A stretch of 64,000 bases of DNA from Paramacrobiotus metropolitanus (taxonomy: Eukaryota; Tardigrada; Eutardigrada; Parachela; Macrobiotidae): NCBI RefSeq assembly GCF_019649055.1, contig NW_026570296.1, positions 248,001 through 312,000 of the forward strand, written 5' to 3'. Below the pieces are notes generated by a model. That model was not told the origin of the DNA. It did no database searches and was given only the letters and a program-made list of their open reading frames with translations. This document shows, in pieces, positions 16,983 to 61,899 of the stretch (its first letter is position 1; each line of letters starts with the position of its first letter). A program made the translations under genes and the position numbers.

Positions 16983-19900
16983 ATGAAAACAGAAGCCGCC
17001 GCCCGTATTTCCGGGACACCCGGTATTACGTCGGGAAGAAGGGGGAGGCTATCCCGGGCATCACTATGTATTGTTGTGGGATGTGTATTCTTGGTGATGA
17101 TGGGCGGGGCTTACGCCACGTTGGGATACTACCGCACGTATACTGTTTACGGAACGGTATGTGATCGCGTTAAAATAGGTATTAAATCGTTCAATATTAA
17201 CAAGAATAATTATTTACGTCATCGTTCATGTAATTTAATAAATTTCCATTTATGCTTGATATCAGTTATTGTTTTAACGTTAAAATGAACGTTTATATGC
17301 TGTATTATGTTTAAGTATTTATGGTACGTGATTATCCACAATATTATTGCATAATATTATTTGAATTATGAAATAAATACTTATGGCACTCTTACCAATT
17401 AATATAAAAATGCCATCTAATAGCTCAAATCACAATAATAAAGTAATAATAACTTAAATAATAATAATTAATAAAATATAATTTATTTACTTGAAGTATT
17501 TATAAGCACTGTTTTTGCCAATAATGTATTACAAGAAACAGCCTCGGCTTCGCCTCCGCGTTTCTTGTGGTCCATGGCCATTTTATTTGGATTTGAATGA
17601 ATATTTATTAGATTAACATCAGTCTATCCGTCGAAACATGATCGGTACACGAATTTTCTATGAAAATCAGTTCATGATTCTCTCAACCTTGAAAGCATTC
17701 CCTTTCGCTGCACATACAGATAATTTTACGATATCCCATACCCGAATAGAAAGCCGAAATATCAGTCTATAAGTTGTGAAATTCGAAACAGTGATAGCGC
17801 ACTGGATCACTAGTTCGGTAACTCATCACTTCACTGGCTCCTTTCACTGGAAGTTGGTGTGTGCCCAGTGGTGTATGTCCGGTCAGTAGTGGTGGCTCGA
17901 TTACTTGCTTAGCTAACCGGTTCCGTTCTCCGGACAGTAGTGGTAGCTCAGTCACTCATGTACAATATACAATAATGACAGCTCGGTCACCCGCTCACCA
18001 CCCGGGCTTTCTGCGCCGGACAGGAGTGGTAGCTCGGTCGCCCGCTCACCTAACGGACTTTGTACACTGAACAGTAGTGACAGCCGCCACTGACAGCTCG
18101 GTCACCCGCTCACCTAACGGGATCTGTACACGGACAGTAGTGGCAGCTCACTACTCCTTCACCGAACGGGCTTTTTGCGCCGGACATTAGTGACAGCGCG
18201 GTCACCCGCTCTCCTACCGGGCTCTGTGCACCGGACAGCAGTGGTAACTCGGTCACTCGTTCCCTAACGGGCTTTTTACACTGAAAACTAGTGACAGCTC
18301 GGTCACTCGCTCACTCGCTCACTCGGCATCGGACAGTAATGACAGCTCGGTCAACCGCTCACATAGCTATCCATAGTGGCAGTTCGGCCACTCACTGGCT
18401 TAGCGGGCTATTTTAACTAGAATGTAGTTGTAATTTGGTCAACTAACGGGCTTGTGCACTGAACAGTGGCGGTAGTTCTGTTTATCGCTGCTTGGCCGGC
18501 ACTTGTTTAGAAATTGTCCTCGATGACAGCGTTGGATATATGTAGTCGTTCTTGTCGCAATAACGCCAACGGTCTGCTAATTAAATTGATTCCGATATTT
18601 TAATTAGCGGAAAATACTTTCATTTTTTAACTATATTTTATTTGGTTTACGTGGCAACATTGCCTGGTTAAAAATACCACGATGATAATTATATTATAAT
18701 AATTTAGTTACATTTGGTGAAGGTAGTCAAAACTCTTCCGCTGTGGCGCTCGAAGCGGGAGAGGTTTTAAAAGAAATGAATACTATCTGGCCGGGTTTTC
18801 GATTACGGTCATTCAGAATATAATATTGGTTTTGGTCAGTCTTTTCTGGTTTGCCGGCTCTGGTGTATCCCATTCGTGGCAATATAGATCTGAATCTTGA
18901 TAAATTGTAACAAAACGGTTGTTTTTCCGGAAGGCCTTATTTTGTGTATTTTTTGGAAGCACTTTGATTGCAGGGTGATAACATTATCAGTACATTCTGC
19001 GCCCACGGTGGCCCCGGTCCCGGACATCCTTGGCGGAAATGGAATGTAGAATGCCTCGATGGGGAGGCCGTCATCGGGATACTGTATGTACGCATTCCGA
19101 CGCAACGTTTTTCATATGTTTATATAAATTGCTGCGTTTGACAGGGATTCATTGAGTGACTATCAGGTATACACGGTTTGCACCGCGCAGAAAAGTACCG
19201 GTTAATGAGATATCTTGTTGTTGTCCTAATTTGGCAGAATATTGGCAATGTGTGGTGCAAGTACATGTTTCCTTATAAACCGCCCACCAACGGCATTTAT
19301 CCTTATTATCCCAAGTAAGTGTCTCCTTATCGCACATGCTATTACACTTTACATATCAAAATTATTTAAATTTTAATTAAATATATAATTGATTTCGGTA
19401 GTTGTTTCTCCAAGAACATGACCTTCCAGTTCTTCTGCTACACACCAAAATACCATGATGCGTCGGTGGACAGCTTTATTGTTGGTAATTACGATAACCA
19501 TAATTCCATAATACCATAATCCTAATGAATTCCATAATACACCGTGTTATGAACATTATTGGAACACAAGGTTTTTATGACGATGACTTCTCCTTCAACA
19601 TCTACCGGAAGACGCTGGATGATCCGTCACCGTATAAATGCTGTAAAGCACCGACGGGATACTACATCGATTATTCCTCCTGTTACTATTTCCCCACGCA
19701 TGACCAGTACGTACTTACACTTTATCAATTAACAGTATTTTATTACTGTTATGCAGTAATGTTTGTTACTATATATTAGCGTTCTCATTGTTTTATACTT
19801 ATTATTAACTTTACTGTTCTGATATTTATGTATGCATTTATAACGTATGTATTAATGGATTTTGTTTATTCTTAAAAATAACATTTATCCAACAGTAAAG

Positions 19901-21015
19901 CACTTGCTTCATAAAATTATGCTCAGTACATACTATTATTTGTAGACTCCTGCATTATTAAACAAAAATGCAGGCTTTCTGCACAGCTACATAATTTAAA
20001 TTATTCCACTGAAAAGGCTTAGATGTATTAAGTAGTACATTGCGGGTATACGGTTAACAATAGTGCATGGTGAGATTTTGTTGGGGTACTTTTTTATTTC
20101 ATAGATTTGTAATGCAACCTCCTCATAATGGCATTATGAATTATAATTATTCTTTACAATGCAGCGACTGCTACTTGAAAAATCGTGCCCTGCTTTGTAG
20201 ATTTTGGGAATATTACGATACTCCCCAGTATTTCCTGGTACGTACATTTAGCATTCTGCGCTCAAGTGCTTAAACCGCACTTGTACTTCTAGGTTATAAA
20301 TTATTATTATCCAACCTTATGTAATAATGTTGTATATTAAGTCGCACATTTATTTCATGCGTTGGATATTTGTAAAATGTACGAGTATTAAAGTAAGTAC
20401 ATACGTAATAAGCGAAAAAACACGCGCTTTATTGCAAGGATCCGCGTGTTGAAGTTTTTAACTGCAGTAATGCTTAATTTCAAACGCACTTATTCATCCG
20501 CCGCGGTAAGCATAAAATTATGTTAAGTGATTGTGATTTCACTTTGTGGTGCAGGTGTACTGTACAACAGGATACGTAATGACGGGAATAGGGAAGAAGG
20601 TCAATCCTTACACGACGGAAGCGCATATCGAATGGTACGTCGATGTGCGCACATATCTGTTACTTATTGTTAGTTTATGCTTGTCTAAAACGAATGTACT
20701 GTACACTGCAGGATCCAGTGCTGTCGTCTGGGCTTCGGCACGGTACCTAACATCATGCCCGCGCCACCACCCCTCGCCGACGACTATTATTATCCCAGCA
20801 ATGTCTCCTCCTACAGCGGCGGGGAGGAGGCGCGTCCCAGTCGGCCCTATACCGGCCTTGGAGGGACATACGGCGCCGGAGCTAGCCAGGCCTCGGGGCG
20901 GTCGCTCTTCCAGGCGGAAGACGGGACGCTGGTGGATAAGGGTGTTGATTTACAGCACTGGGCCTCCATCGACGGCAAGATGAGCGCGCTCTGGCACAAG
21001 AAACAGGAGCTATAG
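16983..21015 (+). CDS. Family member A: signal-anchored Cys-rich ectodomain protein
   Basis: I built this nine-exon gene by hand: 16983-17156, 18974-19083, 19145-19166, 19238-19314, 19402-19484, 19571-19706, 20201-20237, 20555-20634 and 20712-21015. All junctions are GT-AG and phases close, giving 340 aa. Residues 1-27 are basic, 28-47 are a membrane anchor with no obvious signal-peptidase site, then comes YYRTYTVYGT. The ectodomain has Cys in VECLDGE, VWCKYMF, NCFSKNMTFQFFC, YKCCKAPTGYYIDY, CTTGYVMTGIGKK and IQCCRLGFG. The tail (about 250-340) is Pro/Tyr/Gly/Ser-rich. Exon 3 is only 22 nt and encodes xDSLSDYQ. Intron 1 (1.8 kb) carries a minisatellite. Type II membrane topology is inferred. 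I know no family with this layout. Confidence 0.85.
17870..18480 (+). repeat. Degenerate minisatellite in intron 1 of gene A
   Basis: About ten imperfect tandem copies of a roughly 50-60 bp unit are present. Each contains a version of GGACAGTAGTGGTAGCTCGG, then TCACCCGCTCACCTAACGGG, then CTTTGTACAC. The array lies wholly inside the first intron of gene A. Confidence 0.85.
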
Positions 21016-21348
21016 CATCCATACTGACTGACAGATTATTTTGAACAGCAGCGGCGAACTCCGCTTTCGGCGCCGGTGGATGATATTGCGATTGCGCTAC
21101 CGATTGTTGATGGTTGATTTTTCATTGGATTTTATTTAAGTTTGATATCGTGAGTCTTGTTTTTCTACTGTGATACTACACCAACGTCGTTCTATGTTTA
21201 TCGTACTACGGTACTAGTACCATGGCATGCTAGTACTCTTGGTATCAAAGAATACTTCAGTTTTAAGCGAAAGTTTTAGTGTATGTATCCCATTTTTTGC
21301 ACTACGTACCGGGCCATTTCCTTTAACGCATACAGTCCGTGTGTAATC

Positions 21349-21354
21349 AATAAA
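21349..21354 (+). terminator. Candidate polyadenylation signal of gene A
   Basis: A canonical AATAAA lies 334 bp after the gene A stop codon and is the first one downstream. The 3' end itself cannot be seen in the sequence. Confidence 0.45.
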
Positions 21355-21968
21355 GCGCGGATACATGGTGTATATCACTTAACAAAATTATGACTATTAA
21401 TTTAATATTTTATTATTACTTAGACGTCAATTTGTATACCATATAAATTAAATCGTATAAATAACCCGCCGTAGCATTTCGTTACATCATTTGTATGACT
21501 ACTCGCTTACACCATTGATACTTAATGCCGTATCTGCTGCGTCACCTTCTGTGTCGTATGCTGCATTTCTTCGCATGAGATCTCACTTACAGAAAATTTA
21601 CTCTTTATTATACCCGTTCCGCTTATAGAGATAACAATTAAGTAACTTCTCAACGCCTACTATTCTAGCGAACAATGAACATGCACGGCACACTTGAATC
21701 AATGTTGCTAATATGCTGCTAACCACAAAATTGTGCTCAATGAATAAACTAACCTAAAACTATTTGCGTGTTATTATTATCTTCGCTCTCTGTTTAAACC
21801 TAAATACGACATCGATTATGCATATTTGTGCAAGGCAGCGAATATGCACAGTCAATGGGAACCCCGATTATTCCTCCCGGATAATTATTGGCCGGGATTT
21901 ATTATTACGTACGACGACGCTCAGTTAGTACAGTACATATTTGAAGTTAGGACAATACCCCAGTTTGT

Positions 21969-22481
21969 TTGGCTTCAAACTGCGAGACTGTCGCGCCACT
22001 AGGAAAAGCAAGACGATGGAACGCATCACTGAAAAAGCACGTCAATATTGACCAGCCAAAAATGATCGGCAGCTATAACAAGTACATGGGCGGTGTGGAT
22101 TTATGCGACAGGTTCATCAGTGATTACCGGCCGATGATTCGAACGAAGAAGTGGTGGTGGCCATTCTTTGCCAACTCAATTTCTCTGATGACTGTAGCAG
22201 CGTGGCGTATCCACAGAGAGGTAGGAGGAAACCTGACACAGATCCAGTTTTTATCGGAAGTTGTCGAAGGGTTGCTTCTGTCGGGACTGCAAAAGCCGGC
22301 TCGTCTTGGACCTTCAACACCAGTGACCAGCACTGTTCGGTTTGACGGGATCAATCACATTGTGGAAAGATGCAAGCGAGGCCACTGCAAATACTGCCGG
22401 CGTAGTTCAGCGTGGCAGAAGTGCGGGAAGTGCAATGTCCGCTTGCACAAGGCCTGCTTCCCGTTATACCACAAACGTTAA
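21969..22481 (+). pseudogene. piggyBac-type transposase, C-terminal relic
   Basis: The open frame encodes about 170 residues of the C-terminal part of a piggyBac (DDE_Tnp_1_7) transposase. It includes MIGSYNKYMGGVDLCDRFIS, YRPMIRTKKWWWPFF and a closing Cys/His zinc-binding block (CKRGHCKYC, WQKCGKCN, LHKACF.LYH). The MGGVDxxD and RTKKWW motifs are family hallmarks. Upstream sequence is in another frame and does not extend the similarity, so the N-terminal half and first catalytic aspartates are missing. No terminal repeats are obvious. It sits 1 kb downstream of gene A and is presumably dead. Confidence 0.85.
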
Positions 22482-23284
22482 CTACGAAACTTGTTTGTCT
22501 TCCCTGGAAAAGGCTTTCCAAATTTTTTGCCATTTTTTCTCATTTTCTACTGACTGTGTGTGTGATGAAACGACTGTGCCGGCTGCGATCTGTATTTCTG
22601 CAATTTTTATTTTTTTCTTGACCACTGGTCATCTCGATGACCATCACAATGCTCTTGTTTTTAAGTACTCGTTGAGATCTGTTGTTTGAGCTATTGTCGT
22701 ATCCCGTGCGATTTTTGTAACTATTGTTATAAACGTAATTAGATAACATGTCGGCCCAACATGGTTCCCATGCGTGTTATTTCGACATGGTCATCTCCCG
22801 CTTGACCTATGGTCGGTAAAATTTTGAAAAAAATATTTTTCTCTTAATTGAATTTTTTTATCCCAGAATGCAAATTTTCAAAACCGTAGTCCTATCCCTT
22901 CTAGTACCCGGTTTTCCTGGGTTAAGTACAGTAAAGTACTGTGCCTAGAGAGACAATTTCATAACCGTTTAATATTGTGCTTTATTTAAACCAGAATCAA
23001 TTTTGTTAATATGCTGCAGTCTTGTAGTCATGCACTTCCGGTAACCGAAAACCATTAAATACGTTTTTCTTACAGCCGGAGCCTGGAACTGACAAGACCA
23101 AGCATAAAATACTTCACTTTCGAGGTATATAGAAGCGCCCCAAGTTAGTGTCAGTGTGAAATGGTTTCGATGTCTACAGCTAACTTCAGGGAATTAGTTA
23201 ATGAGGATAGCAACAGGTTACGATACTCGGTGTCAGCACTAGTCGAATACCAACTACTTAACACAAACCAAAGATGCATGGGCA
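22482..23284. other. Gene-free spacer
   Basis: This is the stretch between the piggyBac relic and the PAN-gene promoter. Short open frames opposite and after the relic are shadows or spacer. Nothing else is recognised. Confidence 0.5.
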
Positions 23285-23294
23285 GATATATAAG
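23285..23294 (+). promoter_or_regulatory. TATA box of the PAN-domain gene
   Basis: GATATATAAG lies 155 bp before the predicted start codon of the secreted PAN protein, a good position for a TATA promoter with a leader of about 130 nt. The TAAG ending is typical of strong animal TATA boxes. Confidence 0.5.
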
Positions 23295-23448
23295 CCGACG
23301 CAGTCTGGACCAAAAATTTTTGTAGAGCGTAACATTACCGTATTATAGTTCAACCGTATATGTGTTGAGTGTTGACTAGCATCAGATTAATTATTACCAT
23401 AGCGTCCAGTCGGCAGCATAACAGTTCTCTGTACATCTCCACAAGAAA

Positions 23449-24554
23449 ATGCAAACCTTCTTGTCTGTGGCTGTTCTTGCTGGAATCGGTAAGGCTGACC
23501 ATTCAGATTTCATAATTTTATTGGCAGCTGGTCAAAGGTCAAGAAAGCCACCTATTGATAATAAATAGTTTACTGTTTAAAATATGGTAAAATATTTATG
23601 AATCGTAATTGATATTAACGTTTACTTTCAGTGACTTAAATATGTATGCAAAAAGTTCAAGTGTACTTACTGTGCATGTTACAGTTACCCTCGCGTACGG
23701 AGCCGGCGTTTTTGTAAGTAGCCAAATGATAATGCCATAGGAAGTGATTTTAACGAATACGAAGCGATTGGATTTGGATCTACCAACAAGCCTGTCAAAC
23801 AACGCAAGAACGTGCATTCCTGGATGCTGGAGAACTGCATTAAGAATTTCGTATTCGAATGTGATAACGTTGGGTGAACTTAATCTAGGCTAACTTAAAC
23901 TGCCACCACGAGACGGAAAGAAAACAACTCTTAGGAATTTCCCCCTTGAATGACATGTGTTGATTGACATTGTTTTATTAACGACGAACATTGTGCAATA
24001 TTTTATGTGTTTGTACAATACAGGAAAGCAAGATGGTGGAAGTCAAATCCGTCGTTGTGGACTGTGATCAGGAGATCCTCTACACCGCCAGCGAATCAGC
24101 GAAGGATTGCTACAACAAATGCACGGAAGACGGCAACTGCCGAATGGCATCCTACAACATCAGGGACAAACAATGCGGTCTCGTTCCACCACAGTTCGAC
24201 TGCACTTTCGGTACAGAGGTCTTTAACGATTACGAAGTGATCGGATCTACCAACAAGCCGTTCATCCAACGCGACAACGCATCTCTCGATGCTGGGGAGC
24301 TGAAGAATCAGAAAGGTCAAAGGGTGCTACAGGGCGCCAATGGTAAAAAAGCTCGGATCTCGGCTGATAAGTGCAAATCTCTGTGCGATTTCCATCCCAA
24401 CTGCAAAGCAGCGTATTACACGGCAGCCCGGGGCCAGGCCGGTACTTGCCAACTGATGGCCAAAGCGGAACCGATCCGCCAAATTATCGAACCAACTTCG
24501 ACGAGCATTGTCTTGGTAGCCCAGTTTTGGGGTGGATTACCTGCCCCCACTTGA
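23449..24554 (+). CDS. Secreted protein with two PAN/apple-like modules
   Basis: Three exons (23449-23488, 23685-23713, 24024-24554) join in frame to give 199 aa. Exons 1-2 encode MQTFLSVAVLAGIVTLAYGA, a clear secretion signal that could be cut after AYGA. Module 1 runs roughly from VDCDQEIL to CGL and has the PAN spacing C..E.L......S...C...C.....C....Y.....C. Module 2 (about GQRVLQGANG to CQLMAK) repeats it: DKCKSLCDFHPNCKAAYY then TCQL. PAN/apple modules bind proteins or carbohydrates in secreted proteins; the partner here is unknown. Small exons splitting the signal from the mature chain support the model. The first exons rest on splice consensus and frame only. A degraded copy of the module-1 to module-2 linker lies in intron 2. 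Confidence 0.75.
23738..23862 (+). pseudogene. Relic of PAN-gene exon 3 inside intron 2
   Basis: Sequence just after the exon 2 donor (AACGAATACGAAGCGATTGG, then GGATCTACCAACAAGCC, then GGATGCTGGAGAACTG) matches exon 3 at about 24222-24310 (AACGATTACGAAGTGATCGG, GGATCTACCAACAAGCCG, GATGCTGGGGAGCTGAAGAA). The copy has base changes and length differences, so the frame is lost. It indicates an older internal duplication of this gene. Confidence 0.7.
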
Positions 24555-24897: not shown

Positions 24898-24899
24898 TA

Positions 24900-26490: not shown

Positions 26491-27220
26491 CAGTTTACGG
26501 GATCTACATCCGTACACAAACTTTTGCGGCGCAAGTTTGCTACGCAATGCACACTTCGCAACGGTTGATTGCATTGGTCCCAGCCGCTAAGAAAACTACG
26601 AAAACTAAGAAAGAGAAAATCTAAGAAAACTTGAGGAACCCTAAGAAAGCCTAAGAAACCTAAGAAAACAAAGAAACCCAAGAAATCTAATAAACCTAAG
26701 AAACTTAAGAAACCTGAGAAACCTAAGAATACCTAAGAATACCTAAGAAACCTGAGAATACCTAAGAAAACCTAAGAAACCAAAGAAACCTAAGAAACCG
26801 AAGAAAACCTAAGAAACCTAAGAAACCTAAAATATCTAAGAAATAGCGTATATGAAAGAATACGAGGTATACCGATCACGCTGGTGGGATTGACTGCGAT
26901 TAATTTTTGCACATGGTTTTTAAATTTTCAATACTTTGGAACGTGCCGATGCCGAAGGCCGCGGTCTGTTTCGGTTTTTCCGAACGGTCCGCGAACAGAC
27001 AATGCATTGACCATGTATGTTTATGGGGGCCCAAGGCAACAGTTTGTTTTTTGGGGCTACTCCTTCCCTTTTGGGGCGTATCGATGACGCAGTAGCGTAA
27101 GAACATTCGCGCCGTTGAGACGAATTTAACGCACTTGGCCGCGTCGAAATCGGTTCAGCCGTTCGCCCAAACATCGGCTACATTATCAATCGTGTATACA
27201 TGGTTACGGATGTAGATAAC
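26491..27220. mobile_element. Inverted-repeat element with internal minisatellite, unit 1
   Basis: The unit starts CAGTTTACGGGATCTACATC with CTACATCCGTA and ends TTACGGATGTAGATAAC, so CTACATCCGTAA/TTACGGATGTAG is a terminal inverted repeat. Inside, 26585-26848 is a (AAGAAACCT)n-type 9-bp minisatellite. Then comes a conserved core: GCCGAAGGCCGCGG, a GTATGT.TATGG.GGCCC block, a GGGGCG block and CGGTTCAGCCGTTCGCCC. No protein is encoded. It is immediately followed by unit 2. Confidence 0.65.
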
Positions 27221-27858
27221 CAGTTTACGGGATCTACATCCGTACATGACTTTTGTGCCGCTTCTTCGTTTCGAACTTTCGCCCTACCTTAATTCCGGCC
27301 GCTCAAGAAAACTGAAAGTATAACAAATCTGAGGAAACCTAAGTAACATAAGAAAATTTTAAGAACTCTCAGAAACATAAGAAACCTACGAGAACTAAGA
27401 AGCCCAAGAAAACAAAGAAACCTCACAAACCTAAGAAACCTAAGAAACCTAAGAAACCTAAGAAACCTAAGAAATCTAAGAATCCGAAGACATCTAAGAA
27501 AGCTTAGTTAACAGAACCTGAGATGATTAGGTATTTTGAAACGCCAGGTTCATAATGGTATTTTGTTGCGCATTTACAATTTTTGCATGAATTGTTAGCG
27601 AAGCGAGGCCGAAAGGCGCGATTTGTCTTTGTCGCTCTGCGTTAGCTCATGTATGTCTATGGAGGCCCATAGCAACAAGTCGTTTTTTTTGGGGCTGTCT
27701 TGCCCTCTTGAGGCGCACAATATTCGCAGTGTTCCTATGTCACTCGCGACGTTGCGACGATTCCGGCGCACTTTACCGCGTCAAAATCGGACCATCCGTT
27801 CGCCCGATCATCGTGGTCGTCTGCTTAGCATGTATAAGAGGTTACGGATGTAGATAAC
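27221..27858. mobile_element. Inverted-repeat element with internal minisatellite, unit 2
   Basis: It has the same terminal inverted repeats as unit 1 and abuts it directly. The (AAGAAACCT)n block at 27305-27505 contains a run of near-perfect 9-bp repeats. The conserved core (GTATGTCTATGGAGGCCCAT, then CGGACCATCCGTTCGCCCGA) follows. It ends TTACGGATGTAGATAAC. Confidence 0.65.
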
Positions 27859-28356: not shown

Positions 28357-28957
28357 CAGTTTACGGTATCTACATCCGTACGTACACTCGTGGCGCACAT
28401 TAGTTTCGAAAATTACAATTTAAAGAAACATATAGGTCTTCTGTATTCATAACATTTTATGAGCGTAAGAATTCTAAAAAGGCTTAAAAACGTAAGAAAC
28501 ATGAGCAAGCTAAGGAAATCTAAGAAATTTAGTAAACCTACGAAACCTGAGATAACCTAAGAAATCTAAGAAAATTAGGAAACCTAAGAAAGCTGAGAAA
28601 CAAAGCAAAAAATACAGACTGAGCTAATCGCCAGCTTGATTACTATTATTATTTTGCCCTGGTTTCACGATTTCTTATTTTGTTTGCCGAAGCGATGCCG
28701 AAGGCCGCGGGCTGCCTCTGTCGCTGCGGCTGTACAACTGAATAGCCCACGTCCGTCTATGGGGGCCCATGGCAACAATTTCGTTTTTAGGGCCCCTGTT
28801 TCCCCGTTGGGGCGCATCGATTAAGCAATAGCGTAACATTAACGGCGTCTTTGCGACGATTCTAACGCACTTTTCTGCCTGAAAATCGGCCCAGCCGTTC
28901 GGCCAATCATTCGGAACAAAGCATACTCGTGTATAAGATGTTACGGATGTAGATAAC
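28357..28957. mobile_element. Inverted-repeat element with internal minisatellite, unit 3
   Basis: It starts CAGTTTACGGTATCTACATC and ends TTACGGATGTAGATAAC. The minisatellite at 28482-28605 is shorter and more degraded. The core (GATGCCGAAGGCCGCGGGCT, GTCTATGGGGGCCCATGGCA, CGGCCCAGCCGTTCGGCCAA) is well conserved. It is preceded by the duplicated flank 28148-28356. Confidence 0.65.
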
Positions 28958-34721: not shown

Positions 34722-35210
34722 CTCTCACGCGGTAACGTACGGTCGTCAAGTCTCACGCGGTAACGTGTGGTGTCACGTAATAAGGTCCTGCCGTTAACTG
34801 TCACGTAACTCTCACCGTTAACTGTCACGTAATAAGGTGCTGCCGTTAAATGTCACGTAACTCTCACCGTTAACTGTCACGTAATGTGCTGCCGTTAAGT
34901 GTCACGTAACTCTCACCGTTAACTGTCACGTAATAAGGTGCTGCCGTTAACCCCCACGCGGTAACGTGCGGCCGTTGACTGTCATGTAATAACGCAGTGA
35001 CGTTAACTCTCATACGGTATCGTACGGCCGTTATCTTTCACACCGTAACGTACGGCTGTTAACCGTCATGGGATAATGTACCACCGCTATATCTCACGCG
35101 GTAACGTACGGCCGTCAAGTCTCACGCGGTAACGTGTGGTCGTTATCTGTCATGTAATAACGTGCGTGCTGCCGTTAAATCTCAGGCGGTGACGTGCGCA
35201 CGCCGGTAAG
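34722..35210. repeat. 28-bp satellite array
   Basis: About 17 tandem units follow the consensus TCTCACGCGGTAACGTACGG plus CCGTTAAC. Some units are shortened (TGTCACGTAACTCTCACCGT plus TAAC, 24 bp) and alternate regularly with 28-bp units between about 34800 and 34930, which points to a higher-order repeat. No coding potential. Confidence 0.9.
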
Positions 35211-38039: not shown

Positions 38040-38555
38040 GGACCCGGGAAGTGTTGGGCGTTGATGTTTTCAGTACCATCGGCAACATGAGCGCGCGACA
38101 CTCCATAGTAACAGTTCCCCGTGGTCATCGTTACTTTTTATAACCAGCACTTGGTTTCGGGGAAAAAGCGATTTTGCTCCCTCACGCGTTTTGCTGCTGT
38201 AGTTTCGCCGAAAGAAATGAAAAAACTGGCCTTGTTTCACGTGAGCGCTAGCTCGAGGAAAGCCGGGAGCGTAGCGCAGTTGGTTGAAGTTAGTAAGCGC
38301 GGGAAATATGCCTTCATCGAAGAACTGGGATATCTGTTCTATCCTCTGGCAGTCGAGACGTTCGGGACGTACTTTTCTGAGCTGATCCGTTTCGCCGGCT
38401 GGAAGATCCGCGAAGTTACTGGGGAACCTCGTTCTACGGCTTTTCTCAGACAACGTTTAAGCTTAGCAGTAGTCAGAGGAAATGCAGCGGGCGTTTTAGG
38501 TACGCTGCGTGCACGTACTGACAATATGGATTATGGGTGTTTTTTCAATGTTTAA
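38040..38555 (+). pseudogene. Non-LTR retrotransposon ORF2 C-terminal fragment
   Basis: The frame ending at 38555 contains SRKAGSVAQLVEVSKRGKYA, LFYPLAVETFGTY and GEPRSTAFLRQRLSLAVVRG then NAAGVLGT, the same tail as at 4.0-4.7 kb. Upstream, GKCWAL and DVFSTI-like pieces fall in different frames, so the copy is frameshifted as well as 5'-truncated. Its distance from the 4-kb copy suggests a different insertion age or subfamily. Confidence 0.7.
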
Positions 38556-47689: not shown

Positions 47690-48150
47690 TTGACCGAATA
47701 TTCCATAATGCAGCGTGCTATTACCATTACTGGAAACTGGAATATAAGACTTTTATGACGATATGTGATTCCTCCTTTAACGTCTACCGGAAGACGCTGG
47801 ATGATCTGTCACCATACAGATGCTGAAAAGCGCCGACTGGACGTTACACCGAATATTTCTCCTGCAGCTGTTTCCCCACCACGATCAGTATGTGCTGATA
47901 CTTAATTAACTATTATCAAACATATTAATAAATGTATATTAGTGGGTTGAAAATATTTTATTGCTATATTTATTATCCACGGTTTCTGATGCTTATCAGT
48001 TATTTATTTCGTACGTATTAATGTAGTTTCTTTATTCTTGGCATTAAGATTTATCCAATATTAATCCAGCCCTTCATCCATATCTGTACATTTGCAATCT
48101 TCTGCATTGTTTGCCTAAAAATGCAGGCTTCTGCTCAGATATAGAGTACT
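47690..48150 (+). pseudogene. Decayed fragment of the Cys-rich family, exon 6 region
   Basis: Sequence matches gene A at about 19530-19990, including intron flanks. It keeps ACTTTTATGACGATATG, TCTACCGGAAGACGCTGGAT and TTTCCCCACCACGATCAGTA. An extra few bases after TTTATGACGATA shift the frame, a TGT-to-TGA change removes the second Cys of the CC pair, and further changes break the HDQ end. The downstream match (TTCTGCATT, AAAATGCAGGCTTCTGC) shows that a genomic segment, not an mRNA, was copied. No other exons of this copy are seen nearby. Confidence 0.8.
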
Positions 48151-48740: not shown

Positions 48741-49850
48741 GCGTAAATATCGTCTAATTATACACGCGTGTGTTCGTATTTATGCTATATTCTACTGTGA
48801 ATTAATTTGAGTTGTAACGGGACCAGACCGACGTGGTACCTCACGTTTTATTTTCCATTGCAAGTCCCGCTTGCTATGTACGTATTTCTTGTTCTGGTGC
48901 TTTACTGCCGCAGAAATTCAGTGTTTGCGTCGCACATCGCGGCAACATCGAAGCAAGCGGGGGCAGCCGCGGAGCGCGCATAACAGGAAAAAATGGCAAA
49001 GTATCGGGAACTCAGCCGAGATTACCTGTTCCGTGCAGTTGGCGTCGAAACACTCGGACCGGACGCCTCTCGTTTGGTCACCGATGTCGGGAAGATGATA
49101 CAACAGGAAACAGGCGAGGTACGGGCGACGGAGTATCTGCGCCAACGGATCAGCATTGACATCCAACGCGGGAACGCGGCCTAGCAGTCATGGGAACAGC
49201 ACCAGTATCGGCTAACTTAGACGAAATGTTCTGTGTGATTAGGCCGCCTATTTCCGTAGTCGGCTGAGGCTGTGTATTCAGTATACAGTACATCTTTCAC
49301 TTTTATAGAAAATTTGTGACAAATACTCATGTACTTTGAAAATTCATTGTTGGATGTAAAAGATCGGCGGTGATTAATATCCGCGGTTTGGTAATAAATT
49401 ATTTTCGGGAAGAACATTGGCCGCTCTCTCACTGGTCGCCTGTGGACCGTATTTTGGACTCAGCCGGAATCACGTTCGGTCATTACAAAATTCGCACGCG
49501 TTTTGGAGCGGTATGTACAAAATTTTTGCAATTTACCGGGAAAGTTGACTAGTTGAAATTCTAAATTCAGTGCAATCAAATGCAACGGTTTTCATTTTTT
49601 AAACCTTTTTTGGCAGATTTGGCAGCTTTTTTATTTCTTGTTTTTCTATTATAACATTTTCGTTGCCAGGGTGACGCGATTATACACACATGGGGCGCCC
49701 ATATCGGCGCCAGCTACAATCTGCCAGAAGGGAAGTGGATCGTCTCGTCGAATGCTTCGACATTAGTATGTCCGGCCGTCCCCACGTGTACGAGCATGAC
49801 ATTACGATTACTTTCTGTAATCATCGAAAATCACCTGATATTTGAGCATA
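48741..49850 (+). pseudogene. Decayed copy of gene C exons 1-2 with insertion
   Basis: This matches 54261-54905, covering the upstream region, exon 1, intron 1 and exon 2 of gene C. The start codon region is deleted (CGGGAAGAACATTGGCCGCT where C has CGGGAAGATGCGGCGGCGAA). Exon 1 still reads DSAGITFGHYKI and exon 2 GDAIIHTWGAHIGASYNLPE then GKWIV. A 5-bp insertion and a nearby deletion destroy the ECFDGEAV segment. The copy stops before the microexon. A retrotransposon tail (48921-49339) interrupts its upstream part. Confidence 0.85.
48921..49339 (+). mobile_element. Retrotransposon 3' end inserted in the pseudogene
   Basis: It encodes YLFRAVGVETLG, GEVRATEYLRQRISIDIQRG and NAA, then a stop and the 3' UTR (CCGCCTATTTCCGTAGTCGG) shared with 42125-42241. 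A 7-bp direct repeat, AAATTCA, flanks it (48914-48920 and 49340-49346). The gene C locus has one AAATTCA at the matching point, which proves insertion. The element is 5'-truncated. Confidence 0.85.
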
Positions 49851-50029
49851 CTAGCATTGTATGTTTCAATAAGTAGCAGAACCAGGCATCTCCCACCGTT
49901 CCTCTGTACTGCTGCAGTCACCCGGCTGGAGGGTGACGTTGTGGCTGAACATGGCGCATATGTACCGCGCCAGATTTAACCATATGTATCGCCTTAGCCG
50001 TATAGGCTTAGCTGGGCTTCCGGTAGCCT

Positions 50030-51546: not shown

Positions 51547-53907
51547 CTACCAGGCCGAAAAGGCGTCGCTAGCCTTCTGGTACACGTCCGGATGCGTCAA
51601 CTCTAGCCCCGGCTCCTCGCCTATATGCTGGTCGGGGTCATAGCCGGAAAAGACCTCTGCTTCCACCGGATACGCCGGTTTATAGGTCGTCGTATCGTGC
51701 TCTTCATGTTCTTCGTCGTGTTCATCGCCCGGACTGCTGCCTAATCGGCTGACGGTGTTGACCGAGAGATCCGCCGGGCCCAGGGACCTTCCGGCGGAGG
51801 TGTAGGGGCTCTGGTCATAGCCATGGGCCTGGCCGCCGGCGTACCCGCGTTTCAGGGCCTGCGCGCCCAGATTGCCCATGTTGTATTGGTCAGCGTACGC
51901 AGCCGTGGGTCGGCCCGGCTGGCTGGTGTTGGCGTAGCTCCCGTAAGAGTATGCGCCGCTGCTCGGGAGCCGCTTGAAGTCGGGAACGGCACCGTAGCCC
52001 ACCCGGCAGCAATGGATCCTAATCAACAATTTATTATTTCTGGCCGTCATTCTTATATTTCTTGTGTTTTTAAAAATATGACTACGGTACATTATTACTA
52101 CCGCCGTAATACAGACACCGGTGTGAATATTTAGCAATGCTGACAAGAGGTGGGACTGACAGGACAGGACTAAAAAGGGACAGCAGTACCATTCAATGTG
52201 GTAGTCTTTGGTCCAGACGCTCATCTTCTTAGCTAGTCCGGTGACCACGTAGCCGCTCGCGCAGTATACCAGCATGTGCATCGATGAGTCGTAATATTCT
52301 CCTAAAAATTGGGCGTCAGTGGATTACTTTGACGTTACGCATGAGGACGAACGTTGGCACAGAAATTCTAATACAGTATCTGTGTACAGTGTGATTACGC
52401 ATCACAGTATATAGATACTACGCATTGCGTAATATAGATACGTAATTACGAACAAAATATAAATATGTAGGTATATTTAATTAAGCATGCACATGGACTT
52501 ATGTAACATATAACATGTTTTTATATCGATTCTTGCAATACGGCACGCAAACTTTTGTGTGCACCATAAACGAGTCAAAGACGTCAACCTTATCGTCTAA
52601 CTTATACGCGAAATTAGGCCGTAATATTAAAAAGATTATTATTAATTTCGTATAACGTCGTTGTGTAAACAACTGACCATACTGATCGCGTGTCGGCATG
52701 TAGTAGCAGGACATGTAGTCGATGTAATATCCCTGCGGCGTTTTACAGCACTTATACGGCTGCGCATTATCTAAGAATGGCCGGAAGACGAAGAAGGAGA
52801 TCTCCTCGTCCCAAAACCTGCCGGAAACCGAATAAAAAGAACCGTACTGTAAACACTGACGGTGCGCCGAAACATATGCCCATGAACGTACCGGTGACGA
52901 AGGAGTTAACGGAGGCGTCGTGATACTTGGGACTATAGCAGTGCCACTGGAAGGTGAAGTTCAGCGCCCAACAACTACCACGAGAAAAGAAAACTATACG
53001 GTATTCCTTGCGATCGTTGCACTAATATTTTTACTATGCTTTTATATCTAGAAAATGGGGCGTCGTTATTGCTCACTCGGGATAGTAGGGATACAAGCCG
53101 TTGAGGAAGGGTTTATAGGGAAAGGTGAAACGGCACCATACGGTAACCAATTTCTACAATATTGACAACATGTGGCGTATTCAAAACTGTTACACTGTAC
53201 ACTTGTGCCGGCTAACCTGAAAATCATCCGTAAGATCGCTGCAAAACCAATAAATTGTTACTTCAATCTCCCGCTTTGTAGTTTAACGTACAATACGATC
53301 TGTGACGGTCCTAATTAAACAATATTCCCCATTTGATACACGGTCACTGTGGATCATATTCATTAAAACCATTTGTGTTACTTTCGATCTTCAAAACCGA
53401 GACACCCACCTACCCGATGCCGATAACCGCCTCTCCTGCAAGAAAAATCACCGTTATAATTCTGTATTACGTTTTGTAATTCCTGCGTTATTCCGTTTTA
53501 TTCACAAAACTGAATCCGACTATATCCTCAGAATCAGTACGTGCCAATCAGTACATCAAATTATTGACAGGAGTACATATGTATACAGACAATTAAAAGT
53601 GTGACACGGGTTTAGTCTAACGGATGATTTAAGTACTGACCATCTAAGCACTCTACATTCCACTTCCGGTGCGGATGCGACGGGCCGCGGTGCGCGTGAT
53701 TCGTATTGATATACGTGTCGCCCTATATTAACAAGCATAATATATACAAGAGGACGATGCCCAGATGCGCCGGGAAGAAATTATCAAGCCACTCACAAAT
53801 CCATACGTGACGTATGTCCCGTAGTATCGGTTAGTGGGGAGTACATAAGGAAGACAATTAAGGAAGACGACGATCGCCGCTGTCCAGCAGAAAGATAATC
53901 GCCCCAT
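51547..53907 (-). CDS. Family member B: signal-anchored Cys-rich ectodomain protein
   Basis: Eight exons on the minus strand: 53907-53797, 53722-53637, 53238-53217 (the 22-nt microexon), 53153-53077, 52974-52888, 52817-52678, 52301-52190 and 52018-51547, giving 368 aa. Residues 6-24 form the anchor, followed by NRYYGTYVTYGF. Family Cys motifs are present: VECLDG, VWCRFTFP, CWALNFTFQWHC, YKCCKTPQGYYIDYMSC, VYCASGYVVTGLAKK and IHCCRVGYG. Two oddities need care. Exon 2 ends early and lacks the E-A-V-x-G-x segment. The usual exon 5 donor (52892) leaves exon 6 out of frame, so a donor 4 nt later must be used or the gene is damaged. The tail is Tyr/Gly-rich, then very acidic (DEHDEEHEEHD). It is head to head with C. 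Confidence 0.75.
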
Positions 53908-54497: not shown

Positions 54498-56674
54498 ATG
54501 CGGCGGCGAACGCTGGCCGCTTTCTTACTGGTCGCCTGTGGACTGTTTCTCCTCTTCGACTCAGCTGGAAGCACGTTCGGTCATTACAAAATTTACACGC
54601 CTTACGGAACGGTTGGTACAATTGTACAAACATGGCTAAAATCGATCAAATGGAGCCAAATCTTACGAAGCCTCATTTAATTACTATTATGCCATCTTAA
54701 TTTTTATTTTTCTCTTTATGTGTTCATTGGTAGGGTGACACGATTATGCAGACCTGGGACGCCCATATCGGCGCCAACTACAATCAGCCGGAACGGAAAT
54801 GGATCGTCGAGTGCTTCGATGGGGAAGCGGTTATTGGTATGTCCACATGTACCAGCAATTATAAATACTGATGATCATCAAAAATCACCGGTATTGAGAA
54901 CTAATGCTCTGTTTTTCATGTTATTCTTCGGGACTGATCAGGAGTAATGTAAGTAGCATCCGGTACACAAACACATACACATGTCCGACAACACATGTTC
55001 ATCGTGTGCTGTTTTACAGGGGCAATGGTGATGATTTCACAGTAAGCGACACTTCTCCATCGAATTTATTTATATGCGTATATGAGCTGTACTAAGCTGA
55101 TGAAGAGCTTCATTTTTTATCTGGACAGCGTATATGGTGGGTGTGGTGCAAGTTCATGTTCCCCTATAAACCGCCGTCCCAGGGACTGTATCCCTATTAT
55201 CCCAGGTACTGCTGTATTAATTTATTACTTAATTAAATTTATTTTTTAATATAATTATTTATAAGTTATTTTTTATTAATTTGGTCAAATTTATTTAATA
55301 ATAATAATAATTGTTAATTTGCTCTGCAGCTGCCATGTGCGCAACTTCACCATACAGTTCTTCTGTTATACGGCGCTGCAGCACGAGAAGACCGTCAACA
55401 CCTTCATAACAGGTACATTAATGCACTCTACGTATATAATGACGACAATCTACAGCATTGATTGATTTGTATCATGATTTAATATCATGTACGGTGTGTT
55501 TGTGACTAGGATTTTACGGGAAACAGTGGAATTTTATCATGAGCCGTGCACCGCCGCCACCGCCCGGTGATTTATTAAATCCTTACAAATGCTGCAAGAC
55601 TCCGCCGGGATATTATATCGACTATACGGCATGCTATTACCAGCCAACGCACGACCAGTACTGGGTACTTCCTCCTCACGAATAACAAACACTTCGCTCT
55701 TAATATCTTCATTTGCCATATACAATATATATTTAATAATATATTTTATTTATTTACGTTTATTCATATTTCTCTTCTCTTTTATGCATTTATTGCAATT
55801 TACATAGTATTATGTACATAGTTTTAATTGCATTTTTCATTTCTGCCCACAGAAATGTTCGATCTCCTCATATTCTCCCAAATTAGGCAAATTTAATTGT
55901 AAATTGCGTTTATTAAACTTGAATGTAGTATTGTAAATGAGACCTTGATGTAATTTCTGCCCAATTTTTTTAAATAATGCTAATATTACGAATGCGCTGT
56001 TTCCACAAACAAGGAATAATGTAAGTATTTTCCTAATACATTTTCCATTTATTTATCAATAATTGCCACCTGTCAAGCAATGATTAAAAAAACACGCTGT
56101 ACAGGAATACTACGACACGCCCTCCTACTTTCTCACCTTCTGCGCCACCGGCTACGTGATGACCGGCCTCCCTCGCAAACTGAACCCCTACACCAACCCC
56201 GACTCCCACATCGACTGGATCCAGTGCTGCCGCGTCGGCTTCGGCATCAAACCCATCCAGCCGCCGCCCCGCAGCGACAACACCACCACCTACGCCCCGC
56301 CCACCTACTCCCAGGCCCCCCGTGCCTACGCCTACCCCCCACGGCAACGCGGCGGTCCCATGGCGCATTCCCGCTTTCCCGTCGATCCCGACAGCCTCCT
56401 CGGGGGGCGGGCACTGGACCGGGAGCTGGCCATGAACCCGCAGCTGATGGGGACCAACCTCTATCCTTGGTCTAATGGGGAACCGGAAGGGGAGGTGCCG
56501 GGAGAGCTGGACGTCCCGTATGGGAACACCAGTCAACGGCCGGTGCCGGATAGTGCGTATCTCAGTCAATTAAAGGCGTTTTTCGGTCCGACGGAGGACT
56601 CGGTAACGGCCGGAAGTGCCGCGCAGGACCCGGCGCAACCGCTGGTGAATTACGATCAGGAAGCTATGCGGTGA
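54498..56674 (+). CDS. Family member C: signal-anchored Cys-rich ectodomain protein
   Basis: Seven exons: 54498-54611, 54734-54840, 55020-55041 (22 nt), 55129-55205, 55330-55412, 55510-55664 and 56105-56674, giving 375 aa. MRRRTLAAFLLVACGLFLLF is a short basic tail plus anchor. Family motifs follow: YKIYTPYGT, VECFDGEAVIG, VWCKFMFPYKPP, NFTIQFFC, YKCCKTPPGYYIDYTACYY, FCATGYVMTGLPRK and IQCCRVGFG. The exon 2 donor was placed by phase (ATT GGT AT then GT); a stronger-looking site four bases earlier breaks the frame. Exon 7 covers what takes three exons in A, so two introns are missing. It is strikingly C-rich at third positions. The tail is Pro-rich, then acidic. Confidence 0.85.
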
Positions 56675-57924
56675 CCTTTCGCCGAATACTGGTTATGTTG
56701 TTTTTCAATAAGGCTTTCACGTTGTTTTTCTCTCGTTGTGGAAATGACTCGTTAATAATTGTTGGTGGCATTATGCAGAAACGATAATATATATAAAATG
56801 TACGGTCTGTGATGTTTTCGTATACGCACTGACATTCCAGTGGCGCTTGACAAGGGTATTGCAAATTTAACTAAGATGGTAACTCGATAAAATAATAAAT
56901 AATACCAACATAAAACAACATGTTATAAATAAAAATAAATAAATACATATTCACCGACATAAAAAAATAATGGTTTGTTATAATAAGCGCCATATTATAA
57001 GCGCCATATATGTATTTTTGCTTGTTAAATAGTATAAGCGACGAGCATACCAATCGGCGAGTTTTGAAAATAAATTAGAAAAACGTTTATAAAACAGCGC
57101 GTACATTAATCCAGATAATTCCTGATACACTCACTACACTAATATGTAACGCATCGTATGAAAAGAAAATCGAAATATTTTCTTGAGGAAATGTAGCTTA
57201 TATCAATTAAGTATATAATAAACAGTAATTACATTTAATTTAAATCAAGCAGTTATTGATAATTTGTTCTAGTTGCGGTTCAAATCAGTGCATGAAATCA
57301 TCTATTTAAAACTGGACAATCCGACATATTATTATTTCTAAAAACACATATAGGAGGATTAGGCAATGATAATGAAGGGTGTGGCAGCATGTCAGAAATA
57401 TTACTGCTTAAAAAAGTAGGTCTATCGAAACTATGCATGCATCGCTCAGAATCTCCGGCACGGTACAATGTCGTTTCTACTGCGCCTTTCGGCGCATCCT
57501 TAATTAACCAAGAACCGAAATGATGCTGCCAACGAGAACGACATTGTAGTGTTGTTTTATTGATGTCTGTTGAACAAGCGCGCCGGCATCGGCACACAAG
57601 GTTACCATACAGCTTGCGGAAAAGGGTCACTCGACGCGGCGGTTTATGCAGTAATTGCAATTGGCCAACATGTGTGCATGACGCGGCGCATGCAACAATT
57701 ATGGCCGCAGAATAATACACGTTACATATCACAGATTGTGCTCGTTATTATTCGTATACGGTCATCATTAATACCTTCATAACAATATATTTTTTATTAT
57801 ATCATCCTCATGCAAATTATTCACTCTAATTGTTGTTAATTATTGCACGCATAATCTAATAATGTAAAATAATAATATAATTATTCATATTTTAATCCCG
57901 TCAATATCCGGTCTGGAATTCAGC
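56675..57924. other. Spacer between genes C and D
   Basis: AATAAA-like signals at about 56930 may end gene C. A minus-strand frame of 144 codons (57732-57298) has no family match; its Arg/Cys-rich middle overlaps sequence weakly similar to the gene A upstream region (GCGCGCCGGCATC, GACGCGGCGGTTTA). I treat it as regulatory spacer, but a divergent small gene cannot be excluded. Confidence 0.4.
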
Positions 57925-60900
57925 ATGGGTCCGGTGTGCTGCGGTTGGTGGCGGAGGACGCCGGTTATTATTGTTATTGTTGCGTTATGGGGAATCAGTG
58001 TTGTTGTGGCTGTTAACCGGTACTACGGTACCTATACAGTCTATGGATCGGTGAGTTGTACTACTAATTATTAATAAATAATAATTATTAATTTACATTA
58101 TTGTGAAAATAAATATGTTATTATTACATTGTCATTATTATATACAGAAGTATATGTTGTATATAAATTATTGTTATATTATTATGCCCTGCATAAAACC
58201 AGCTCTGCTATACTTTATACAGGGTGATACGATTATGACCACCTTCCATGCGCACGGCGGCCCCAATCACCCGCACCGGAAGTGGCATATTGAGTGCATG
58301 GACGGGGAAGCAGTCGTGGGAATTGGGTACGAAGCTTTTTATTTCTGCAGTAGTATGTTGTTATCGTGTCTGTTATTATTCATTGTTACGTAGTTAACAT
58401 AATGTAATACTGTCTTAATTTTTTTACCGTATTTTATGAAAAATATTTTATTACGTTGAATGAGGAAGTATACTTTATTTTACAGAGACATCAACGATGA
58501 CTTTCAGGTAGGTAAGCAGCATGCCTTTGCATTTACGCATTTACAGTGCACAAGTACCGGTTTCAGTGGTTCGTACGCAGTCAATCAGAATCTCATGTAC
58601 AAGTACAATATGTACCCTAACACGACAACGTGATGATTAATGTTTCTTTGGCAGAAATTCGTGTACATCTGGTGCAAATTCATGTTCCCTCATAAACCGC
58701 CCACAAACGGCTTATATCCCTTTTATCCCAAGTACGTATACTTCTATGTGTAGGATGTGATCGGTCCACATTCAGTCGTAGATTGAAAAGAACGTATTCT
58801 GTAGCCAAATAATTTGTAATCATTGACGTGAAAACCGTTTATGCATGCAATATCCGGTTGGGGAGTTATGGGAGAAATATAAAGTAATCTAAAAGTCTAG
58901 ACGCAGGGCGGTGTACCGAAAGTCTTGTACTATATCACCCGATTTTCTTTAATTAAGTACTAGATGTAAAATAAGGAGGACAAATCCACGGGCGCGAGCC
59001 CGTGGAAAGGATTTTGGAAAGGAAATTGCCATGGAATTCCATGGAATCCGTGGATTTACGGAAATCCAAATGGATTTCCGTAAATCCAAGGATTTCGTTT
59101 TTTTCGTTGGAATACCATTAATTAGCCATCAATTTACATAAGTTTTAACAAAACACCATTTCAGATATCGCCCGCTGATTAATTACCGCGCATTCATCGC
59201 TTGTAAATGCATTCAAAGCTCTAAACAAAGTAAAGGTACACAGAAGTGACAGAACTATCTGCTTTTCATAAACAGAGGCAGTGGTACTATGTTATTAGAG
59301 CATAGCTAGCAGACCTGGGCAGTTAATTTTAACTATTTAACTTAACGCGAGTTATTTTCGAGTTATTGAGTTATAACTTAACTCTTTAGCGTAACTTGCT
59401 CAGAAGAAAACTTAACTTTAACTTAACTCTCATACAAATACTATGTATTGTCTATGGTACCGTAACTCGCGGTTTAACTCGAAACTCGGTTTTCCTGCAT
59501 AAATAACTTAACTCTTAACGTAACTCGCACGTTCCTGTAACTCCTAACTCTAACTTTGGGTCAAATTTCTATAACTGCCCAGGTCTGATAGCTAGTACAG
59601 ATGCCGCCGGTCTACAGTATATTAGAGATACCTTATAGTGCAGATTCGGAAACTGCAGATAGTTAGCTACTGAACATAGAAACTGAACTTATTTCACAAA
59701 AAAAAATAAATGAAAAGGGTAGTTTCGGCTGCTACGCTAAAACCACGCCTGAAGTTAATAAATTTCGATATGCATGTCTGTTTTCTCCTTAGTTTTAAAA
59801 CAGCAAAACAATACTATACTACCATCTACCAATACTAGTACTCTTACATCATTGATGTAGTGCGGTTAAACTGACACCGGTAACTTGTCTTTGATACTGT
59901 ACGAGTCATGCATGCGTACTCATGTTGCAGTCTGACGTTATCTGATAACTCCGGCGCGTTTTTTCTTTACCGGGCAGTGTCAGAATAGAGACGGCCATTT
60001 TTTAAATAATAAATTTGTAGCTACTCGTTGAAAAATGTTCAGTTTGTAATTTTTTATTCGACATTTCTGTGCGTTTGGAATTCCAAATACAGGGAATCTG
60101 GAATTCCAAGCAAAAATTGGAATTCCACGGATTTCCTCTTTTCCATTTTCCAAATCCGAGCCACTCGCATGGGGCGCGGATTTGGAAATTGGATTCTATC
60201 CGTGGAATTCCATTTTCCGTGGACGGTCGTTCCTTAATGTAAAACTACGTATTGCAGTGAGACATAGCTTACAAAGCACTCTGTATTGCAGCTGTTACGT
60301 GCAGAACTTCACATACCAATACCACTGCTATAATCCCAAATTCCACGATGCCACGGTACACACCTTCGTTACCGGTAATTATACTGAATGAACAAATGCT
60401 GTATTAATTTTGGTATAATTAACCGCAAAACGACGCTCCACCGCTGTTTTAGGGGGAGTTTTGTATATGTATCTGTACTTATACACAAATACATAATGAT
60501 TTTTAACAGGATTCTGGGATAACGACTTCCAGTGGTGGACGTTCCGAGACGTGGTGGACTATCTGCAGCCATACAAGTGCTGCAAGACACCGGCGGGATA
60601 TTATATCGACTATTCCCTGTGCTATTACTTCCCCACGCACGACATCTACGGCGAGTACTACGACAACGTCAACCAGATCATGGTCACCTGCGCCACCGGC
60701 TACGTCATGACCGGCATCGGGAAGAAGCGCGACAAGTGGAACGACGGCCCGATTCCCAACAACGGCATGCATATCGCCTTCATCCAGTGCTGTCGGGTAA
60801 TTGATACTGTAAAATACTATTTGAGTACCATACCTTTTTTCAGTTTTTTGGTTTATCTGGTTTAGGTAAAATAATCGTATTTTTTATTTTATTTTTCAGA

Positions 60901-61899
60901 CGCTGTACATTATTTCATATTTCATCTTAATTTTTTAAGATAATAGCATAATGTTCATGTAAATTTTTTTAAATAAATTTCTTTTAAATAGTGAAAGTAC
61001 TGTTTTTTTTTAAATCTGGTGCCAATTTTTCACATGTTCCATGTTTTCCTAGTACATGCAGTATCTTTATATTCATACAAGCTCACCGACCAAAGCGTAT
61101 TTATGCACCGTTTTCATGGACTCGTGAACGCGTGGTCAGTTTAAGTCCAGTTTGGTCCTAAAAAATTCCATATTTTTCATAGGTGTGCCAATAGATTTTA
61201 TAGTTTTTTTAGTGATCTCTGGTCGCAAAATAATTTCATCGAGTCTTAAGCATAGGCATTATACGTAGATTACTGGAATAAAGCCCAGTACTTCAGACTG
61301 CCTGTAACCACGGAGAAAATAAAACCAAAATAGAACCAATACCATGCAGTACCTAAGTGCCGAGCGCGAATGCCGTGTATTCATACACTGCATATTTTTT
61401 CGTTAGCATCGTCTGGTTAATATACTAATTATTTCAGCTTGGATACGGACCAGTGCCTAGTTTCCGACCACAGAAGCACACCTACACGTACGACTACTAC
61501 GCCAACAACGACTATCCCGGTAAACCCAGCGGCGCCTATGCCGCGCAGTACCAAGGCCGCAATCTGGGTGCTTCTGGTATCCCGCGCGGATATGTCGGCT
61601 CCGACCGGCAGCCGGAGCCGGAACGCCAAGGAAGATACCTGGGAACCAACGTCGACGAGGACGACCTGTATGACCATCACGCCCAGAGCTACGCAGAGAA
61701 GCCATATGATAACCAGCCGGAACAGCATAATGGTGAACAAGCCCGGTCGCAAGAAATGTCGCCGCAACAGCCTTATATTCGACTGGAAACGTCGCAGTCG
61801 GCATCGGTACAGGGCGCTCCCTTGGTGGGACATATAATGGCGTCGGATGCTGCCCATCATGAAGACGATGACATGGACACACCGTACAGTGAGGGCTGA
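57925..61899 (+). CDS. Family member D: signal-anchored Cys-rich ectodomain protein
   Basis: Seven exons: 57925-58050, 58223-58326, 58486-58507 (22 nt), 58655-58731, 60292-60374, 60510-60796 and 61438-61899. All have GT-AG ends and matching phases, giving 386 aa. Residues 13-31 form the anchor after MGPVCCGWWRRT, then NRYYGTYTVYGS. Family motifs follow: GDTIMTTFHAHGGPNHPHRK, WHIECMDGEAVVG, WCKFMFPHKPP, CYVQNFTYQYHCYNP, YKCCKTPAGYYIDYSLCYYF, TCATGYVMTGIGKK and FIQCCR. The tail (about 235-386) shares a Tyr/Gly segment with B (AAQYQGRNLGA versus ADQYNMGNLGA) and ends acidic. The HDQ-site intron is absent, and the last intron lies 16 nt downstream of its place in A and B. Intron 4 is enlarged by transposons. 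Confidence 0.9.
58972..60236. mobile_element. hAT-like element in intron 4 of gene D
   Basis: A perfect 8-bp direct repeat ATGTAAAA (58964-58971 and 60237-60244) flanks a 1265-bp insertion. Its ends begin TAAGGA and end TCCTTA, with further imperfect complementarity (ATCCACGGG on the left, CCGTGGA on the right). Internal GGAATTCCA and GGATTTCCGTAAATCC motifs are palindromic. No transposase is encoded. It contains a younger MITE at 59310-59587 and explains why this intron is 1.56 kb when its counterpart in A is 87 bp. Confidence 0.7.
59310..59587. mobile_element. hAT MITE nested in the intron element
   Basis: The ends CAGACCTGGGCAGTTA and TAACTGCCCAGGTCTG are a perfect 16-bp terminal inverted repeat. 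A perfect 8-bp target duplication, ATAGCTAG, lies at 59302-59309 and 59588-59595. CAGACCTGGGCA is a classic hAT-type terminus. The 278-bp interior is made of TTAACT/AGTTA-type repeats and is non-coding. The intact ends suggest a fairly recent insertion. Confidence 0.9.

Follow-up and report, generated by a model that had tools for sequence, protein, structure and literature searches.

The genome of the tardigrade Paramacrobiotus metropolitanus encodes a large family of proteins that share a ten-cysteine head, four of which, genes A to D, lie with two relics in a 64,000 nt stretch of contig NW_026570296.1 (positions 248,001 to 312,000; hereafter the window, numbered from its first base). The family is real, and it is much larger than these four genes and two relics, through which it was first noted in an interpretation of the window made from its letters alone (the sequence-only reading). 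We hold, with moderate confidence, that it is a large, old tardigrade family of secreted proteins, the heads of which would be laid down in an extracellular matrix where their tyrosine-rich surfaces, and the tails that follow them, would bind or cross-link. As predicted, each protein starts with a signal peptide, which is followed by a brief linker rich in aromatic residues, the ten-cysteine head, usually with one N-glycosylation site, and a tail containing tyrosine and proline.

Family size and divergence

Protein searches of the genome (169.8 Mb in 533 contigs) returned at least 167 exon matches at E values up to 1, and at least 126 and at least 142 at E values up to 0.001. Grouped by hand, the exon matches form at least about 58 loci on 22 contigs, a count in which four loci have the support of a single exon (C13:1438, C5:1745, C116:351 and C384:31 kb) and one, on contig C428, is possibly a second copy of a C13 locus. 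The family pattern TGYTGYAARNNNCCNNNNGGNTAYTAYAT is found 14 times in the 170 Mb genome and not at all when reversed, and its occurrence is therefore not a matter of chance. The sets of family matches at C428:19480-20567 and C13:1824061-1825142, the former contig being small and the latter large, closely resemble each other, possibly representing two alleles retained in the assembly. The genome also has five matches to the DM domain, two of these being separated by 28 kb on contig C5 (2.14-2.16 Mb), in agreement with a published study of P. metropolitanus in which five DMRT genes are reported, two of which lie on scaffold 5 within 1.96-2.37 Mb (PMC11191345).

Gene models were made for 35 loci, consisting of the four in the window and 31 elsewhere, with L011 left out as a duplicate of L003. 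The reading frame is unbroken in 30 of these and broken in B, L031, L035, L037 and L042, while exon 1 was located in 19. Across the 30 frame-clean loci, the proportion of synonymous differences (pS) is at least 0.7 in 427 of 435 pairs, indicating that the copies are old. The remaining eight pairs, with pS below 0.7, have ratios of nonsynonymous to synonymous divergence (dN/dS) of 0.05-0.35 over the whole head; hence these few comparable pairs are under purifying selection and, where it can be measured, have been kept as proteins. In a midpoint-rooted tree of the 35 loci, A, B and D form one supported clade, C groups with L020 of another contig (support 100/99), and L042-L044 are set apart from the other members. 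About 2 kb from L020 lies a gene of the lipocalin family (L022, C14:1066177-1066566; PF00061, E = 1.5e-10), which appears by eye to be similar to fatty-acid-binding proteins; the lipocalin search that found it, aimed at the SAHS proteins of tardigrades, gave two further, weaker matches.

The ten-cysteine head

The claim of ten conserved cysteines, made from the window genes, holds throughout the modelled family: each cysteine column, at positions 36, 60, 80, 91, 130, 131, 144, 167, 200 and 201 in the numbering of D, is a cysteine in every modelled locus that covers it. Columns 1 to 10 are covered by 34, 35, 35, 35, 35, 35, 35, 34, 30 and 30 of the 35 loci, respectively, and all ten by 29, just seven of which have any additional cysteine. 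This even number of invariant cysteines, combined with the lack of a further hydrophobic segment beyond the linker in A, C and D (the three checked), is as found in secreted, disulfide-rich proteins; the ten would presumably form five disulfides.

The head is roughly 195 residues long, with 24 invariant columns in an alignment of 19 loci. Conservation is greatest in the KCCxxP..GY..DY..C...HD block and in the WIQCCRxGYG segment (W[IL]QCC), the first of these being retained with substitutions (GYKIDY, GYHLDY) even in the distant subfamily L042-L044. It is lowest in the loop after GFWDN (GFWDNDFQWW...), between the fourth and fifth cysteines, where both sequence and length vary through insertions and deletions. 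An N-glycosylation sequon follows the third cysteine in 28 of the 35 loci as identified by script, and in L031 as judged by eye. Heads longer than 170 aa (32 of the 35) contain 10.3% tyrosine and have a mean isoelectric point (pI) of 5.9. Once the first segment is removed, the pI of A, C and D is 5.5-5.6. Internal repeats within the head were sought and rejected, as hhalign comparisons between its parts were not significant and the match between segments R0 and R1 consisted merely of six residues common to both. Structure prediction for a contiguous 95-residue piece of D, supplied with three partial alignment rows, gave a predicted local distance difference test score (pLDDT) of 38.3 and a predicted template modelling score (pTM) of 0.22.

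Gene structure and a 22 nt micro-exon

The four genes and two relics are present where the sequence-only reading placed them, and the region from 16983 to 61899 extends exactly from the start codon of A to the stop codon of D (Table 1). Models were built by joining exons by hand at GT-AG boundaries with checks of the frame, and then with a purpose-written spliced aligner. The two approaches gave the same exon lengths for the head of A and exactly the same model for the head of D. The frame of A is open provided that a short cassette exon near 20200 (EYYDTPQYFL) is skipped; an AG is present there, and joining this exon is out of frame. In C, the donor of exon 2 is weak (AT|GTCCAC). The last two exons of B both fall within the open frame 51547-52323, their edges having been set by eye, and spliced alignment of this gene produced eight introns and one apparent frame break, in exon 7, with the rest reading through. 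This break may be an assembly error or real decay; the former is possible because a published study (PMC11191345) describes an assembly error of one base in a different P. metropolitanus gene.

Table 1. Coordinates of family genes and relics in the window.
Feature	Position	Strand	Exons	Product and remarks
Gene A	16983..21015	+	8: 16983-17156, 18974-19083, 19145-19166 (micro-exon), 19238-19314, 19402-19484, 19571-19710, 20555-20634, 20712-21015	329 aa; GT-AG model
Gene B	51547..53907	-	9: 53907-53797, 53722-53641, 53435-53414 (22 nt), 53238-53217 (micro-exon, 22 nt), 53153-53077, 52974-52892, 52817-52678, 52301-52190, 52018-51547	
Gene C	54498..56674	+	7: 54498-54611, 54734-54840, 55020-55041 (micro-exon), 55129-55205, 55330-55412, 55510-55664, 56105-56674	375 aa, open; GT-AG model
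Gene D	57925..61899	+	7: 57925-58050, 58223-58326, 58486-58507 (micro-exon), 58655-58731, 60292-60374, 60510-60796, 61438-61899	386 aa, open; GT-AG model
Micro-exon of D	58486..58507	+	22 nt, between phase 2 and phase 0 introns	Encodes DINDDFQ; counterparts A 19145-19166, B 53217-53238 (by hand), C 55020-55041
Relic, A-like exon 6	47773..47894 (edges approximate)	+		In-frame stop
Relic, C-like exons 1-2	49481..49744 (end approximate, taken from frame 49655-49876)	+		

Genes A to D have a common intron plan that includes a 22 nt micro-exon, absent from the sequence-only account, between the exon encoding EC.DGE and that encoding WCKF. Because the exon before it ends in phase 2 and the one after it begins in phase 0, the two cannot be joined without it. 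The micro-exon is present in 22 of the 30 frame-clean models and was left unplaced by the aligner in L004, L013, L014, L029, L034, L038, L043 and L044. Two consecutive 22 nt exons were modelled in gene B, L006, L007, L009, L016, L027, L030 and L041; this arrangement is unusual and might serve in studies of micro-exon splicing.

N-terminus and tail

The product of exon 1 is probably a cleavable signal peptide, with the proteins predicted to be secreted. N-termini were scored for 12 of the 19 located exon 1 sequences, those in which a methionine was chosen by eye. The longest run free of charged residues, amide residues and histidine is at most 17 residues in nine of the 12, and in nine (A, B, C, D, L003, L014, L018, L034 and L038) the highest-scoring predicted cleavage site lies 0-3 residues ahead of the YYG-type linker, with that of L020, L030 and L036 being elsewhere. 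These short runs, the position of the cleavage sites and the lack of a later hydrophobic segment are the basis for regarding the proteins as secreted, and the membrane anchor originally ascribed to them is consequently not favoured.

Tails were compared in 15 of the 35 loci, those in which the tail frame reached 70 aa or more, read without regard to introns. The tail, originally depicted as fast-changing and rich in tyrosine, proline and glycine, is of low conservation overall and yet does not change fast throughout: a PP motif near the start (variants PPV, PPI, PPL, PPQ and PPPR) is found in 12 of the 15, an AYxxQY-type motif in ten and both in eight. The tail is thus partly conserved.

Searches against known families

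Within the libraries searched, the description of the family as unrecognised is supported by the absence of any convincing match to Pfam, NCBIfam or PDB sequences. Pfam was searched with fragments, the whole of A, C and D, 19 members, a consensus, one distant member and six tails, and nothing convincing emerged. Six Pfam families each matched one of the 19 members (the best being RcnB, E = 0.0014), Fungal_trans (E = 0.05) and DUF7629 (E = 0.09) matched a fragment of D, and PilW matched one tail (E = 0.19); all were rejected as chance. The family consensus had no match in NCBIfam, and searches of PDB sequences, both with one sequence and with the family profile, found a single chain, 5ua4, at chance level (E = 0.26). 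Pattern scans followed by tblastn gave two pattern matches in bacterial and archaeal contigs and 16 in viral contigs, none of which was confirmed. Neither six family peptides nor any description of the family was found in the open-licence papers searched.

Proposed role and alternative explanations

The sequences suggest secretion, disulfide bonding and glycosylation. From the tyrosine-rich, acidic composition, the conservation of the aromatic blocks and the large number of copies we infer a role in a matrix such as the cuticle or eggshell; the sequence-only reading had likewise suggested a role at the surface or in the cuticle or matrix. Under this proposal, the signal peptide would be cleaved, and the heads would fold in the secretory pathway before being laid down in the cuticle, the eggshell or a basement-like layer; there, tyrosine-rich surfaces and tails might bind or cross-link their neighbours, and the tails of some members might be processed at furin-like basic sites. 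Arthropod RR cuticle proteins and peritrophin-type chitin-binding proteins have the same aromatic-rich and many-copy character, and are secreted as is predicted here; the family differs from them in that Pfam detected none of their domains in the heads or six tails.

A number of observations weigh against a secreted matrix protein. No chitin-binding or other matrix domain was detected by Pfam in the heads or in six tails, a search in which the HMMER filters limit weak matches. Furin-like R-x-[KR]-R sites are confined to six of the 15 tails (L003, L009, L014, L016, L018 and L028), none of which belongs to the window, and are absent from those of B, C and D. Cleavage scores are weak relative to shuffled sequences, with L014 alone being clearly better (equalled by 4 of 500 shuffles, compared with 27 to 213 of 500 for the others), and the hydrophobic segment of D, 19 residues following two arginines, might be an uncleaved anchor. 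Lastly, the loop after GFWDN is strongly variable, as a recognition surface might be.

This loop is central to the main rival explanation, in which the family would consist of secreted recognition proteins, lectin-like or immune, with a conserved disulfide scaffold and one variable loop setting the specificity of each paralog. The many dispersed and strongly diverged paralogs, as reflected in the tree and the saturation of pS, are consistent with this, as is the presence of one variable loop with insertions and deletions. However, purifying selection was found in the eight comparable pairs, as measured over the whole head, there is no Pfam match to a lectin or immune domain, and the conserved blocks appear to exceed the length that a scaffold alone would require. 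Because two blocks are so strongly conserved, a structural or self-assembly role fits better than variable recognition, which we consider rather unlikely.

Unlikelier still is the sequence-only proposal of signal-anchored (type II) cell-surface proteins, which would apply above all to D. The arginines preceding the hydrophobic run of that protein favour it, as does the fact that more than 20 of 500 shuffles equal the cleavage-site score in 11 of the 12 members. It is opposed by the shortness of the run in most members, and by the proximity of the best cleavage site to the linker in just as many.

It is very doubtful that the proteins are distant relatives of dermatopontin (DERM, PF14704). Dermatopontin, also termed tyrosine-rich acidic matrix protein, is a secreted, tyrosine-rich and acidic protein with ten cysteines, including a CC pair, and W..C-type motifs. 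The family resembles it in each of these features, with secretion being predicted here, and the patterns G..I......R.W...C and G.V..G....W..CC appear by eye to be common to both; it differs in its cysteine spacing, its two CC pairs and its added tail. The comparison used a single sequence, which we take to be that of human dermatopontin; it scores as DERM and had no match in the PDB. Aligned to it with hhalign, the segment containing the first pattern gave 21% identity over 33 columns (E = 0.028), with a probability of just 1.8%. Against this, the full profile scored 2.5 bits over another region of the sequence, and 80 of 2000 shuffles did as well; for three of four sub-profiles, 377-674 of the 2000 shuffles scored at least as well, and no match was obtained with the remaining one. 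DERM was also absent from the Pfam scans of A, C, D, the 19 members, the consensus and the distant member, and its model had one match in the genome (E = 0.146), below the cut-off and outside the family. Dermatopontins are further characterized by a repeated D-R-[EQ]-W-x-[FY]-x-C motif, in place of which members of the family have RKWxVEC and HIDWIQCCR-like segments. With no significant match to the DERM profile and a by-eye likeness that is unsupported relative to shuffles, membership was rejected.

A tardigrade family of secreted Mn-dependent peroxidases, g12777, with 39 copies in H. exemplaris, is similar in its many copies, its signal peptide (predicted here) and its combination of a disulfide-bonded domain with a disordered stretch; g12777 is described as having three disulfides, an N-terminal disordered part and a metal (Mn-binding) motif, CD-CD, in which six positions separate the cysteines (PMC9145152), whereas the present family has ten cysteine columns, none six apart, and a C-terminal tail, and was therefore not assigned to it.

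Neighbouring features of the window

Near gene A is an open frame with PAN domains (23982-24554, + strand; PF00024, E = 3.6e-12, in two stretches), representing a second gene of extracellular type. Directly downstream of gene A is a transposase remnant (21951-22481, + strand) matching PF13843, DDE_Tnp_1_7 (E = 4.1e-8), which we take to be piggyBac-like. Open-frame pieces at 4046-4621 (- strand), 38112-38555 (+ strand) and 48984-49184 (+ strand) are alike by eye, with LRQR(L/I)S....RGNAA in common and no match in Pfam, and are perhaps the tail of a mobile element protein. Arrays of a 9-base repeat similar to CTAAGAAAC are found across 2 kb, at 26587-26843, 27334-27501 and 28488-28601, and a degenerate minisatellite, the periods of which are 28, 56 and 84 bases, extends from 34771 to 35166.

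Significance

With at least about 58 loci, a head in which all ten cysteines are conserved and no model in Pfam, the family is a gap in current annotation and at the same time a concrete set of candidates. Given the micro-exon and the split exons, automatic gene models of its members may well be wrong, which would have helped the family to stay unseen. To our knowledge, tardigrade genomics has centred on heat-soluble and stress proteins, with little known of the composition of the outer coverings, and no study of tardigrade cuticle proteins was found in the open-licence papers searched. It is conceivable, if still on the unlikely side, that the family has an extracellular disulfide fold that is new and confined to tardigrades, or even to a single family of them, and that with more than 50 loci it would be a main building block of such coverings as the cuticle or the ornamented eggshell. 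Were this the case, it would bear on how tardigrades shrink, seal themselves and survive drying.

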